From a virus: 64,000 bases of DNA. The stretch lies in the IMG/VR virus record IMGVR_UViG_3300031576_000019, positions 26,774 to 90,773 of that record, one strand, 5' to 3'. This document shows positions 5,074 through 20,359 of the stretch, in pieces. The position numbers were made by a program, and so were the translations under genes. The first letter of the stretch is position 1; the number at the start of each line of letters is the position of its first letter. Under the pieces are notes generated by a model. It ran no database searches. It saw only the letters and a program-made list of their open reading frames with translations, and was not told the origin of the DNA.

Positions 5074-5490
5074 ATGGATCCCATCACCGAAATCCAAACC
5101 GTCTTATGTGCAGCTGGCCAGGGGGAAGAACAGGCTATGGCGCTTGTTCACAAAATGTGCATAATTATTCACATGATTGACGACTCCCCTACTCTGCTTA
5201 AACGCGCCGAGACACTTCATGTTCGTTGGACCCTGCACGCCGCCCAGCTCCGCGTTCTTAGTACGTTCAAGTTTCTGCCAGATGAAAATCTCCACAACAC
5301 CGCCAAGGCTGAAGCCTATGAAGCCTGCGCGTGGCAGATGGGTGAGTTGATTTCTCTTATCAAAGGACTCAACTCATGTTCACCCCTAGCACTCTCCTCG
5401 AACGAACCATCGGAACAAACCAACTGGCTGCAGAAATCCTCATTGGCCTTGCCTACCACATCCCGATTGACCGCGCCAAGCGGTGGGTAG
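5074..5490 (+). CDS. Unknown protein, 138 aa, overlong 3' end
   Basis: Starts behind a TAGGAGGAATAGT ribosome site. The first 100 residues are helical in character (for example LLKRAETLHVRWTLHAAQLRV). From base 5376 onwards it overlaps the next gene for 115 bases in another frame, and that tail (Ser/Pro/Thr-rich) looks like an out-of-frame reading of the downstream gene. A TAG stop lies one frame away at about 5388, so a single-base indel may have extended this protein. No family recognised. Confidence 0.6.
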   Translation: MDPITEIQTVLCAAGQGEEQAMALVHKMCIIIHMIDDSPTLLKRAETLHVRWTLHAAQLRVLSTFKFLPDENLHNTAKAEAYEACAWQMGELISLIKGLNSCSPLALSSNEPSEQTNWLQKSSLALPTTSRLTAPSGG

Positions 5491-16417: not shown

Positions 16418-16435
16418 ACTGCGCGAGCTCTGTCT

Positions 16436-16450
16436 CCTCCAGGTTGGAGG
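16436..16450. repeat. Dispersed palindrome, one-mismatch copy
   Basis: CCTCCAGGTTGGAGG, intergenic, 20 bases upstream of the GTGAA dyad promoter. Confidence 0.75.
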
Positions 16451-16469
16451 AAAGACCGAGCCGCCCGGT

Positions 16470-16500
16470 GTGAATAATCTTTCACAACCTGTGGTATAAT
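16470..16500 (+). promoter_or_regulatory. Promoter with GTGAA dyad
   Basis: GTGAATAATCTTTCAC at 16470-16485, then 9 bp, then consensus TATAAT at 16495-16500. Transcription should begin near 16507, just before the structured leader. Confidence 0.8.
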
Positions 16501-16512
16501 CCTTTTACAAAC

Positions 16513-16653
16513 GCCGTTTGGCAGCGGCCATGAGTGACACAGGACCCCCAAAGACCTCTCGCATGGTCTGTTGGTTTGTTAGGCCACCCCACTTGTCCTG
16601 TGTGGGGCTGCCAAATAGGCCGACAGCTAATAGACCAGCCGAGAGGTCTTTGG
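16513..16653 (+). ncRNA. Structured, probably pseudoknotted leader RNA
   Basis: Complementary segments: GCCG/CGGC (16513-16516 with 16525-16528) enclosing loop TTTGGCAG (16517-16524), which matches CTGCCAAA (16608-16615); ACACAGGAC (16537-16545) with GTCCTGTGT (16595-16603); CCAAAGACCTCTCG (16548-16561) with CGAGAGGTCTTTGG (16640-16653), nested inside which TGGTCT (16564-16569) pairs AGACCA (16632-16637); and a competing hairpin CCCCAC/GTGGGG (16587-16592, 16602-16607). The first two long-range pairings interleave with the 14-bp helix, so a pseudoknot or a two-state switch is implied. It lies between a strong promoter and the ribosome site of the MUG113-domain gene. No known RNA family recognised. 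A 42-codon ORF (16530-16658) spans it without a ribosome site. Confidence 0.75.
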
Positions 16654-16669
16654 TTTAGAAGGAGAGAAT

Positions 16670-17293
16670 ATGTTTTCTTTTAGAGTAGAAGCCAGAGGGG
16701 TTCCGTTCTCAATTTGGTACCCCGAGGGGATTATGGTTGACCCAGACCAGATTGATCCAAGTAATTCTAAGCATATACAGGCTCTCGCCGAGATAATTGT
16801 CTACTACAAGAAAAACAAGGCGGGTTTCAACCTAGAATCTATGATGGGGTGTGGGGACGAGTTCTACTATTTTGGTAGCCCAGAACAAATGAAGGATGTG
16901 ACAGAACTTTATGAAACCGTTGTGCGCGAAGGATGCGATATAAGCACAGATGCTCTAGCGCAGGCAAAGAAGATAAGGGATGTTTACTATGGCTTCACTC
17001 CCAAACCCGTAAGGCCCCCCAAGGCTAGGCCAGAAAAGTCGAGACACGGTTTTGTGTACTTGCTTAGGTCGGACACTGGATATTGGAAGATTGGCCGAAC
17101 GGTCAACCCCGCCAGTCGCGAAAAAACATTTGGTGTGAAACTCCCCTTCGTTGTTCGGTTTGAGCATCTAATTGAAACCAATGACATGATCGCTCTTGAG
17201 CTTCGCTTACACAACCACTTCTCCAAAAAGCGTGTAGATGGCGAGTGGTTTGATCTATCCTCCGAAGACACAGCCTACATCAAGAGCCTATAA
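16670..17293 (+). CDS. GIY-YIG-like (T5orf172/MUG113) protein
   Basis: 207 residues, GAAGGAGAG ribosome site. The C-terminal domain (about 125-207) begins GFVYLLRSDTGYWKIGRTVN and continues through ALELRLHNHFSKKRVDGEWF, the MUG113/T5orf172 variant of the GIY-YIG fold, with the Tyr, Arg and Glu positions expected for a nuclease. The N-terminal 120 residues are unassigned. Family members are usually thought to cut DNA, though few have been tested. It is the first gene behind the structured leader and heads the replication transcript. Confidence 0.8.
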   Translation: MFSFRVEARGVPFSIWYPEGIMVDPDQIDPSNSKHIQALAEIIVYYKKNKAGFNLESMMGCGDEFYYFGSPEQMKDVTELYETVVREGCDISTDALAQAKKIRDVYYGFTPKPVRPPKARPEKSRHGFVYLLRSDTGYWKIGRTVNPASREKTFGVKLPFVVRFEHLIETNDMIALELRLHNHFSKKRVDGEWFDLSSEDTAYIKSL

Positions 17294-17297
17294 GCCC

Positions 17298-18299
17298 ATG
17301 AGCATTTCACTCCTCGCAAAAGTTTTCTACATTGATCCAAAGACCTGCGATCAACCAGAGAAGTGTGTTCTCTCGGCCCTGGCTGACCATGCCAACGATG
17401 AGGGTTACTCTGTCTGGCCTAGCAATGCGCGGCTGGCCTGGAAATCCTCAATGAGCGTGCGTGGTATTCAAAAGGTGATTGACCGACTGATCGAGAAGAA
17501 GTTTGTAGAGATTGTCAGAGAGGCAAATAATGGGCGAACAACTAACGAATATCGTCTTGTGGTTGAAGAAATTGAGGCGGTTTCGGCCAATCATAAGGAT
17601 AGGTTTTTTGATGGGCCAGATGGTCTTACCCACGAACCCCGTTCAGGGGCACCCCTGAACCCCGTTCATCCCACCCCTGAACCCCGTTCACCCGAACCAT
17701 CATATAAGCCATCAAAAGAAACACCAGAAACGGAGAATGACAAAACCGGTCATTCTCCGGCTTCACATAATCTTTCACATCTGAGGCCACAGATAATGGA
17801 GGTTCCAAGCCATCTCAAGGTAAAAGAAAAGATGACCTATACAGGTCGATGCGATCAGTGTGAACAAATAATCACACAGTCTGATTTGGCCTGCCCGGGG
17901 CAAGGCTGTGGGCGTCCAGTTCAATGGATTGGGGGTCGGACGAAGAAAGAGACGGGTAGGGTCACAAAACCCGCCTACGGCCCGCTCAGCGCGTTTACGC
18001 TCAAAGTGCTCAAGTTTGCCCAGGGGACCGTAGACTACAAGTTTGACTGGCCGTCTCCGATGAAGGGCCAAACTTCCTCCAACTTGGAGGGACGCTTCCT
18101 ATCCTTTGAACAAAGCCTGGGTGAGGCGAAAGTTATGTCAATTATCGAAAAGTGTGGGCAGGTCGGAGATAAGGGACTGGGACTCCTCAAGCACGCTATC
18201 AACTGCCTGGCGACCAATTCCGACCCGACCGCCAGGGGCCAACGGCCAGTTGCTTCGCAGAGTCTTGAAACGAAAGGAGAAATAGATTGGGACGCTTAG
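17298..18299 (+). CDS. HTH replication initiator-like protein
   Basis: 333 residues from ATG 17298; upstream extension to 17238 would overlap the preceding gene. Residues 1-70 form a winged HTH of the phage replication type (ALADHANDEGYSVWPSNARL, then SVRGIQKVIDRLIEKKFVEI). A Pro-rich linker follows, then a four-Cys zinc ribbon (CDQCEQ..., CPGQGCG, about 200-225) and a C-terminal helical part. Directly followed by DnaB-like and primase genes, so it likely binds the origin and loads the helicase. Palindrome copy 18076 is read as SSNLEG. Confidence 0.72.
   Translation: MSISLLAKVFYIDPKTCDQPEKCVLSALADHANDEGYSVWPSNARLAWKSSMSVRGIQKVIDRLIEKKFVEIVREANNGRTTNEYRLVVEEIEAVSANHKDRFFDGPDGLTHEPRSGAPLNPVHPTPEPRSPEPSYKPSKETPETENDKTGHSPASHNLSHLRPQIMEVPSHLKVKEKMTYTGRCDQCEQIITQSDLACPGQGCGRPVQWIGGRTKKETGRVTKPAYGPLSAFTLKVLKFAQGTVDYKFDWPSPMKGQTSSNLEGRFLSFEQSLGEAKVMSIIEKCGQVGDKGLGLLKHAINCLATNSDPTARGQRPVASQSLETKGEIDWDA
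18076..18090. repeat. Dispersed palindrome, copy 8
   Basis: Exact copy inside the initiator-like gene, read as Ser-Asn-Leu-Glu-Gly. Confidence 0.9.
18249..18264 (+). repeat. TTGCTTCGCAGA motif, copy 3
   Basis: AGTTGCTTCGCAGAGT within the 3' end of the initiator-like gene, a few bases upstream of the AAAGGAG ribosome site of the helicase. Confidence 0.5.
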
Positions 18300-19276
18300 T
18301 GCAATCCGCCGATTTGACGTATCTCACTCCTGACACCCTTACGGCCGGGCTGGATTACATTGATTATATCCAGAAGAACCAAGGCCGCGCCATCGAGTTA
18401 CCTATTGCCTCTCCGCTCGTTCAGGATTACTGCCCACCCGTCATTCCTGGCCATATCATGCTGGTTGTGGCCCAAAGTCATAATGGCAAGACGGAGTTTC
18501 TGGAAGCTCTGGCAAAGCATAATGCCCTGCGCGCCGCCAAGCATAACCCCAAGGCCGTAGTAGCCTTTGTACATCTTGAGGAAAACATTCAGGATGCCAG
18601 CCTCAAGCAAATCTCACGGCTGTCTGGCGTGCCCATGGGAAAGTTGGCCCGCGGCGAAGTCAATCTTGCCGACCTGCGCCTCAATCCAGAACTCAACAAA
18701 ATCAACGATGCTCCTATCGCTCGGATTGCCGTCAGCATGAGAACGGGCGACAGCCAGTACACCGCCAAGCGATTATATCGCCCTGAAATCCATCGCCAGT
18801 TGAAGGCACTCGAAAGCGAGGGTTGGGAGATCGTCCTGCTTATTGTGGACTATCTCACCGCTCTGCCGACCGACGCCAAGGATGACGAGGAGCGGCGCCT
18901 GAAGGTGCGTGAGGATTTATACGAGTTCCGAGACTGGGGGAATGCCATGCGCTTTCCAGTAGCCTCTGGTAGCCAAGCCAAGCAGAAGCTAGAAGGCGCT
19001 CCTGCACCAGGCATTATGCTTCCCGGTCTTTATGACATTACTGAGAGTAAAGATGTGGCCGAACGATCCGATAGAGTCTATACCTTCTGGATGCCCAAGA
19101 CCACAAACTTGCTTGGCAAGACTTTTGACTTTGGTAAACACACTTTGCGTGTGACCAACGACCTCATTCTCATGCGCGTGTGCAAGCAAAAGGGTGGCTT
19201 GCAATCTGGACGTATCTTTATTTGTCGGTGGAATTATGCTACTGGCACCATTGAGCTTCATCCCGAATACAACTAG
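18287..19276 (+). CDS. DnaB-like RecA-fold helicase ATPase
   Basis: 329 residues. Start TTG 18287 is set by AAAGGAG 7 bases upstream; it overlaps the previous stop, and a GTG at 18299 is the only alternative. The P-loop reads AQSHNGKTE (about 64-72), lacking the first Gly of the consensus GxxxxGKT. Walker B is VLLIVDYLTALP (about 183-194), and SGSQAKQ resembles the DnaB H3 region. It lacks the N-terminal primase-binding domain, which is common in phages. Probably the replicative helicase, fed by the neighbouring primase. Confidence 0.78.
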   Translation: MGRLVQSADLTYLTPDTLTAGLDYIDYIQKNQGRAIELPIASPLVQDYCPPVIPGHIMLVVAQSHNGKTEFLEALAKHNALRAAKHNPKAVVAFVHLEENIQDASLKQISRLSGVPMGKLARGEVNLADLRLNPELNKINDAPIARIAVSMRTGDSQYTAKRLYRPEIHRQLKALESEGWEIVLLIVDYLTALPTDAKDDEERRLKVREDLYEFRDWGNAMRFPVASGSQAKQKLEGAPAPGIMLPGLYDITESKDVAERSDRVYTFWMPKTTNLLGKTFDFGKHTLRVTNDLILMRVCKQKGGLQSGRIFICRWNYATGTIELHPEYN

Positions 19277-19279
19277 CCT

Positions 19280-20305
19280 ATGGACAAACTCTCGCAAGCC
19301 CACATAGGCCAGGCCAAGAGCGCCGACGTTTTGTCATTGGCCAGTCAAATGACCAAGCTCAAGAAGAAGTCCAACTCGCCTCATTTTGGTGAGGAATGGA
19401 AGGGGCCTTGCCCTCGCTGTGGTGGCGAGGACCGGTTTGCGGTTCGGACAGGTATCAACCGTTGGGCTTGTCGCCAGTGTACTGGCATCAACAAGGATTG
19501 CTGGTTTGACGCTATTGCCTTGATTTGGTTCATTGAGACTTGGCAAACACGGCCACAGGGTAAAGACTTTATCTGGTGTGTCAACTCTATCCTCGACAAG
19601 AAACTGCCTACCGCTCCAACACCTGAACCTGAAGACTCGGCTGGCCGACAAGAAGCCTTGGCCCGCTTTACCAACACTGAGCTCTGGCAGGAACTTCACC
19701 GGCGCATGACCCAAGAGAACAGGGATTGGTGGACGGCGCGCGGCGTGCCGCCCGTCTGGCAGGATAAGTTCACCCTTGGCTTCACGCCCGACTGGACCGT
19801 GCAATATCACGAGAAACCGTATCATACACCCGCTTACTCAATCCCATATCGAAGCCTCGAAAACAAAGTTCACAATCTACAATTCCGACTCACCAACCCA
19901 CCCGCGCCTGGTGACAGGTATCGTTGGATAGGAAAACTTGGCGCCTCGTTTTTTGTTGGCCAGCCCGAGATGGGCCTGACCGAAGAAGTCTTTATCGCCG
20001 AGGGCGCTATCAAGGCGATGGTCTTCATCAGCGAGTTTGTACAGGGCCAGCAGGTGCTCGCTACGCCTACCAATGGTTCCTGGGCTGGCATGCCCGACGC
20101 CATCAAGGGCAGGGTCAAGCGGGCTTGGATTATCCTTGACCCCGACAGCAACCATCGCGCCCACGGCTTAGGTAATGAGATTGGTCGGGATGTAGCCCGC
20201 ATCATCACTCTGCCTGCCAAGCTGGACGATCTGATCTTGCACGGCATGGAATATAGGGACTTTGACCGGATGCGCTATTTTGCCCGCCCGCCCCGTTTGA
20301 TATGA
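19280..20305 (+). CDS. DNA primase (zinc finger plus Toprim)
   Basis: 341 residues, starting 4 bases after the helicase stop. Zinc finger: CPRCGGEDRF (about 44-53) and CRQC (about 64-67), as in CHC2-type primases. Toprim: VFIAEGAIKAMVF (about 239-251, acidic Glu) and WIILDPDSN (about 277-285, DxD). It lays RNA primers for phage DNA replication. The helicase and primase are separate genes here, unlike in T7. Confidence 0.85.
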   Translation: MDKLSQAHIGQAKSADVLSLASQMTKLKKKSNSPHFGEEWKGPCPRCGGEDRFAVRTGINRWACRQCTGINKDCWFDAIALIWFIETWQTRPQGKDFIWCVNSILDKKLPTAPTPEPEDSAGRQEALARFTNTELWQELHRRMTQENRDWWTARGVPPVWQDKFTLGFTPDWTVQYHEKPYHTPAYSIPYRSLENKVHNLQFRLTNPPAPGDRYRWIGKLGASFFVGQPEMGLTEEVFIAEGAIKAMVFISEFVQGQQVLATPTNGSWAGMPDAIKGRVKRAWIILDPDSNHRAHGLGNEIGRDVARIITLPAKLDDLILHGMEYRDFDRMRYFARPPRLI

Positions 20306-20332: not shown

Positions 20333-20347
20333 CCTCCAAGTTGGAGG
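20333..20347. repeat. Dispersed palindrome in a leader
   Basis: Exact copy overlapping the expected transcription start; its GGAGG continues as GGAGGAGAG and is the only ribosome-site sequence before ATG 20360. Confidence 0.9.
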
Positions 20348-20359
20348 AGAGACCAAGAC

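Follow-up and report, generated by a model that had tools for sequence, protein, structure and literature searches.

Crossing sets of helices in a structured leader RNA ahead of a phage replication operon: pseudoknot or switch?

Is the leader RNA that precedes the replication genes of a phage in virus record IMGVR_UViG_3300031576_000019 a pseudoknot, or does it switch between two folds? This question, already put in a preliminary description of the locus, is the right one to ask about it. The DNA that was analysed, referred to here as the window, comprises bases 26774-90773 of the 90,773-base record (64,000 nucleotides), and coordinates are those of the window unless another locus is named. 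The phage carries genes for an integrase of the serine-recombinase kind, a portal protein, a helicase and a primase-like protein, and is therefore probably a temperate tailed phage. It appears to have few relatives: the nearest that were found are terminases at 34-50% identity, and the records of these terminase relatives, many of them fragments, do not contain its DnaB-like helicase; a search of viral contigs with its initiator and helicase genes yielded no relative, and tblastn against phages, with the helicase as query, gave zero matches. A Thr-Pro-rich phage protein presumably hints, weakly, at a Chloroflexota host.

The description had read, within the 141 nucleotides that follow a dyad promoter, perfectly complementary segments in the order a b c d b' a' d' c'. 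A search for perfect helices in 16513-16653 returns exactly this order (Table 1), with segments of 14, 9, 9, 6 and 6 bp within 16517-16653. The lengths originally given were 14, 9, 8 and 6 bp; only the 8 requires amendment, helix a being 9 bp long. The assignment of a to the loop of a GCCG/CGGC hairpin stands (8 of its 9 nucleotides constitute that loop), as does the pairing of b with b', most of which is carried in the loop of hairpin f.

Table 1. Coordinates of the leader, its promoter and the genes that it precedes
Feature	Position	Strand	Basis or remark
Operator-like dyad of the promoter, TGTGAATAATCTTTCACA	16469..16486	+	recurring in the genome
Extended -10, TGGTATAAT	16492..16500	+	sequence; recurring spacing from the dyad
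5' hairpin GCCG-UUUGGCAG-CGGC, loop = segment a	16513..16528	+	fold
Segment a, UUUGGCAGC	16517..16525	+	9 bp with a'
Segment b, ACACAGGAC	16537..16545	+	9 bp with b'
Segment c, CCAAAGACCUCUCG	16548..16561	+	14 bp with c'
Imperfect tandem repeat AGACC-N8-GGTCT-(G)TTGGTTT-n-AGG, copy 1	16552..16583	+	own hairpin in the alternative fold
Segment d, UGGUCU	16564..16569	+	6 bp with d'
Segment e	16570..16580	+	11 bp with 16614-16624, four G-U
Hairpin f (CCCCAC/GUGGGG), loop holds most of b'	16587..16607	+	6 bp, 16587-16592/16602-16607
Segment b', GUCCUGUGU	16595..16603	+	partner of b
Segment a', GCUGCCAAA	16607..16615	+	internal loop separating e and f, 3' strand
Same tandem repeat, AGACC-N8-GGTCT-(G)TTGGTTT-n-AGG, copy 2	16632..16662	+	sequence, fold
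Segment d', AGACCA	16632..16637	+	partner of d
Segment c', CGAGAGGUCUUUGG	16640..16653	+	partner of c
Hairpin hiding AGGAG (16660-16664), AUG of 16670 in loop	16654..16684	+	-8.2 kcal/mol
First operon gene, 207 aa	16670..17293	+	C-terminal T5orf172/MUG113 (GIY-YIG) domain; N-terminal part unmatched
Replication genes: DnaD/O-like initiator, DnaB-like helicase, primase-like protein	17298..20305	+	

That helices a and b cross c•c' also holds: the crossing pairs sum to 23 bp, a value absent from 5000 dinucleotide shuffles and found, among 3858 segments of 141 nt on both strands of the genome, at the leader site alone. The 14-bp helix by itself is reached in none of 5000 dinucleotide shuffles, and the same is true of three helices of at least 9 bp. 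The 141 nucleotides fold with -71.5 kcal/mol (z -6.16; equalled in 0 of 200 shuffles), and by composition-corrected energy the leader ranks first among 6474 segments of 140 nt on both strands of the 90.8-kb record. A second null model permutes base pairs inside the main fold and shuffles the unpaired bases among themselves. With the main fold thus preserved, an alternative helix of at least 9 bp arises in 2.2% of 5000 shuffles, two arise in 0.02%, and a nested second pair of 9+9 bp in 0 of 5000; the second set of pairings is thus more than a by-product of the main fold. Pairing in the leader has, then, two layers, and chance is an improbable source of the second. These helix and fold statistics refer to a single sequence and say nothing about conservation; on their strength the leader is a real, statistically strong and unfamiliar structured RNA of the + strand, known from one sequence, whose main fold and interleaved helices both exceed chance.

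Nearly the whole of the leader is predicted to be structured. The predicted fold of the finished RNA (fold 1, -72.5) combines the 5' hairpin at 16513-16528 with a long hairpin of c, d, e and f that ends at 16653. Fold 2, in which a•a' and b•b' are forced (-56.0), pairs the 5' end with the middle of the RNA, extends helix a to about 13 bp and closes the AGACC-N8-GGTCT hairpins at 16552 and 16632 separately. Modelled as nested structures, the two folds are mutually exclusive; modelled as a pseudoknot, most of a•a' and b•b' could be compatible with c, d, f and most of e.

The order of folding was derived from partition functions on growing transcripts. Helix b•b' has a probability of 0.9-0.98 when the 3' end lies at 16603-16612 (with a dip to 0.47 at 16609) and a•a' one of 0.87-0.98 for 3' ends at 16615-16624; in this nested model b•b' drops to 0.12 after a•a' has formed. 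Helices e and f follow from 16627, then d, and c exceeds 0.4 from about 16645. Because RNA polymerase covers the last stretch of its transcript, the real switch positions would lie further downstream. The stability of the intermediate fold is ordinary for its composition (z -1.99), which makes the handover from one set of pairings to the other only plausible.

The leader had also been placed ahead of a GIY-YIG-type nuclease gene and the replication operon, and the gene order bears this out: a gene with a T5orf172/MUG113 domain is followed by the DnaD/O-like, DnaB-like and primase-like genes. Homologue searches with the first gene matched its C-terminal domain alone elsewhere; a PDB sequence search with its protein gave no useful match, and AlphaFold2, run without an alignment, no usable model (pLDDT 35). 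The hairpin at its start site (12 bp, z -2.7) exceeds in stability those of all the other start regions in a comparison of 17; it directly adjoins the end of c', on which it could stack. It is predicted with either leader fold, and the predictions therefore provide no link from fold to output. This hairpin is AU/GU-rich and, with the ribosome-binding site inside and the AUG in its loop, somewhat resembles an RNA thermometer.

There is no U-run of the intrinsic-terminator type 3' of the leader, the tail being UUUGGUUUAG. The two terminator-like sites at the leader are weak, 5-bp structures, unlike the phage's clear TTTT terminators, and a hairpin-plus-TTTT scan of the + strand from 14771 to 44976 turned up no strong intrinsic terminators. 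The leader does offer competing folds of the kind that an attenuator has; even so, both intrinsic-terminator attenuation and antitermination of the put type are weakened as explanations. One frame of 42 codons is open from ATG 16530 to TAG 16658, stopping a little short of the ribosome-binding site, and a second is open at 16534-16683. A leader peptide read from 16530-16658 was considered and is unsupported, with no evident Shine-Dalgarno sequence.

The dyad of the promoter is genuine as a recurring element: 16 sites with at most two mismatches are found in the genome, as against 0-1 in simulated sequence. Within the window the dyad TGTGAAYAATNNTTCACA lies at 5156, 8843, 14807, 16469, 17859, 20301, 22975, 30858, 35024 and 58557; the remaining six sites lie to the left. 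The leader's spacing between dyad and extended -10 recurs at window positions -6743, -4084, 8843, 20301 and 22975, and transcription would start near 16507. At + strand early genes the dyad lies immediately upstream of the extended -10, and at several - strand genes directly 5' of the ribosome-binding site; it has the look of an operator on which a single, phage-wide regulator acts. Since it is common to 16 sites, one of them before a tmRNA gene, the leader would belong to a phage-wide regulon. A scan of IMG/VR for the DNA pattern of the dyad promoter returned no matches. The tmRNA gene itself (L006:6083-6397, outside the window) scores 77.6 bits, above the Rfam cut-off, was missed by ARAGORN, and is preceded by the same dyad promoter as the leader; a tRNA-Ala gene lies at L006:7037-7110, also outside the window.

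The description recognised no riboswitch, ribozyme or attenuator family in the leader, and the Rfam and C4-model searches likewise point to no known family. In Rfam 15 no family reaches its gathering threshold in the window; at E <= 5 one miRNA-hairpin model appears, far under its threshold, and no known Rfam ribozyme or riboswitch family matches the leader. The C4 antisense RNA model (RF01695), run over the whole record, returns nothing at E <= 1. Comparison by blastn with phages at E <= 5 gave only a 25-nt coliphage match, taken as chance, and with plasmids nothing. In IMG/VR the a...a' pattern occurs at 29 places and the b...b' pattern at 90, of which 80 were obtained as loci; none of those screened comes near the leader's combination of crossing and outer helices. 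A single-sequence covariance model found no other convincing match in this phage or in its terminase relatives. Applied to 297 genomes from the phylum of a terminase-bearing MAG, it returned one match, L147 (34 bits, E 5e-5 per genome), which has 10 nt (GTTTGGCAGC) and a short terminator-like hairpin in common with the leader; its 5' stem is interrupted by a U-C mismatch, and both the a' and the b' partner are missing. Considered as a homologue, L147 was judged to be chance on these structural grounds, on rough calibration and on the number of genomes searched. By these searches the leader is, then, apparently without a convincing homologue.

The reading that we favour over the others, tentatively and with its probability put somewhat short of even, is of a cis-acting and probably non-coding leader of ~160 nt whose fold changes in the course of transcription and which gates the early replication operon. 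While the polymerase is still inside the leader, b•b' would form first and a•a' next, anchoring the 5' end to the middle of the leader; after the 3' half has emerged, the long f-e-d-c hairpin would displace the a and b pairings and free the 5' hairpin. The long hairpin would end just before the small hairpin that masks the first gene's ribosome-binding site, and the two sets of pairings would constitute a timer or a switch whose setting depends on kinetics or on a partner such as a protein or another RNA. What the sequence shows is the segments, their excess over chance expectation, the repeated dyad promoter and the order of the genes; how the RNA refolds in the cell, what it controls and what its partner may be are inferences. 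What speaks for this reading is a main fold far beyond chance, a second set of helices beyond chance with that fold kept, the sequence b•b', a•a', e/f, c on growing transcripts, a forced fold that is complete in itself, better folding of the + strand than of nearly the same bases of the - strand (-71.2 vs -56.7), the location between a recurring phage promoter and replication genes, and a ribosome-binding site held, right after c', in the most stable start hairpin of the 17. Against it count the want of a homologue and hence of covariation, the ordinary stability of the intermediate and the loss of b•b' after a•a', a start-site hairpin that is the same under both folds, and a downstream region free of terminator-type U-runs.

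The notion that both sets of pairings are held at once in a static, compact pseudoknot is the nearest competitor, unlikely but to be taken seriously. The long hairpin would bend at the one-sided d/e bulge, and b' in its apical loop, together with a', would dock on b and the loop of the 5' hairpin; the product would serve as a protein- or ligand-binding domain, as a shield for the mRNA 5' end or, conceivably, as a ribozyme. Since a' and most of b' lie in loops of the main fold, c, d, f and most of e would stay formed; the intact core is predicted at -62.8, to which, loop penalties not counted, one extra duplex would add about -10 and the other between -10 and -12. The length of c+d is close to that of e+f, so that a bend would return the apical loop to b. 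The geometry is nevertheless demanding, with b only 2 nt before c and separated from b' by a hairpin that, unbent, would be ~40 bp long. If the 5' hairpin opens, moreover, the a helix can grow to about 13 bp, a feature that speaks for competition rather than kissing, and no known ribozyme or riboswitch matches. Less likely is an RNA immunity module, in which the 5' part (a and b) would be cut off and, in trans, target b' and a' in newly made leaders, shutting the replication operon in the lysogen. The P4 CI RNA, which is processed from an untranslated transcript and pairs with two complementary sites to halt replication-gene expression (PMC4825925), is the most instructive parallel, and it is possible by analogy that the leader works likewise. 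Like P4 CI and P1-P7 c4 (RF01695), it is a phage RNA from an untranslated stretch before genes that are to be kept off, with two complementary segments in reverse order downstream, as befits an antisense RNA and its target; the phage looks temperate from its integrase, the leader stands ahead of replication genes, and neither a' nor b' has another plausible target site in sense orientation. However, the C4 model is unmatched, a 14-bp helix crosses the complementary segments and is left unexplained, neither processing nor termination (by a U-run) is evident, and the operator dyads suggest that a repressor already governs the promoter.

Three further readings are progressively harder to credit. 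Quite improbably, the element may act as DNA, either through two copies of AGACC-N8-GGTCT, 80 bp from each other, as palindromic sites for a protein, or as an origin structure used by the phage initiator. The palindrome AGACC-N6-10-GGTCT occurs only twice in the whole genome, both times in the leader and thus beside the replication genes; however, four G-U pairs in helix e on the + strand, together with the far weaker fold of the - strand, indicate an RNA in the sense direction, which is also that of promoter and genes, and at the leader no iterons were found and GC skew takes no clear turn. It is very improbable that the leader binds RNA polymerase after the early promoter and so brings about terminator read-through, as HK022 putL does. 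Like putL and putR it is a compact structured RNA right behind an early phage promoter, but put RNAs are about 70 nt long with two stem-loops (PMC9378689), whereas the leader is about twice that length and of other architecture, and the absence of strong intrinsic terminators from the downstream scan leaves little to read through. Least credible of all is an accident of folding in an old duplicated hairpin or in the short frame at 16530-16658. Since the c/d half recurs, imperfectly and in tandem, as d'/c', c•c' may indeed stem from a duplicated hairpin, the frame ends just before the ribosome-binding site, and the case is one of a single sequence without homologues; yet two different null models gave 0 of 5000 and the leader ranks first in its genome, c•c' extends past the palindrome into spacer and flanking bases, no Shine-Dalgarno sequence is evident for the frame, and a second frame is open too.

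Two other systems bear comparison with the leader. The ColIb-P9 repZ leader, a pseudoknot switch of an IncI-alpha plasmid with a 5'-rUUGGCG motif (PMC10724649), shares with it a 5' hairpin with a UUGGC loop, a complement downstream and a place before a replication gene. In contrast to ColIb-P9, the phage leader has its complement about 45 nt upstream of the ribosome-binding site, a first gene that is not the initiator, no supported leader peptide and no visible antisense promoter: a scan of the - strand at 16500-16760 for -10 elements of the TANAAT and TG-N-TA-N3-T types found none, and weak TANNNT sequences on that strand lie only outside the leader helices. The metastable mRNAs of type I toxin-antitoxin systems (e.g., Helicobacter pylori, PMC6733600) resemble the leader's predicted path in passing from transient pairings to a stable fold, but they encode a small toxin, whereas the leader is not evidently coding and precedes replication genes.

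A bolder formulation, which we regard as doubtful, is that the leader stands for a new class of regulatory RNAs in phages, whose two crossing nested pairs of helices form a large pseudoknot or a refolding timer that gates the replication operon and is possibly sensed or bound by the adjacent GIY-YIG protein. Should the leader's proposed role hold, it would add an RNA layer to early replication control in a phage with few known relatives and provide a compact natural case of co-transcriptional refolding versus pseudoknot formation in one molecule. At present the leader is a strong single-sequence candidate whose function is a proposal.

The same phage carries, besides the tmRNA gene, a twister ribozyme and a hammerhead-like core, both to the left of the window. 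The former, of type P5 (L005:10702-10758), scores 49.5 bits, above the cut-off; the latter, CUGAGGAG...GGACGAAAC at L005:9542-9598, falls short of the Rfam cut-off with 26.8 bits (E 6e-4 when 211 nt are searched). The region L005:8000-14000 contains small ORFs, several strongly folded stretches, and intergenic hairpins followed by TTTTGATTCC. A hairpin with CCTCCAANTTGGAGG recurs near ribosome-binding sites or terminators, in the region of 20337-20348 and at 16433-16451 in the window, at L002:850-870, and at L005:8474, 11355 and 13371.
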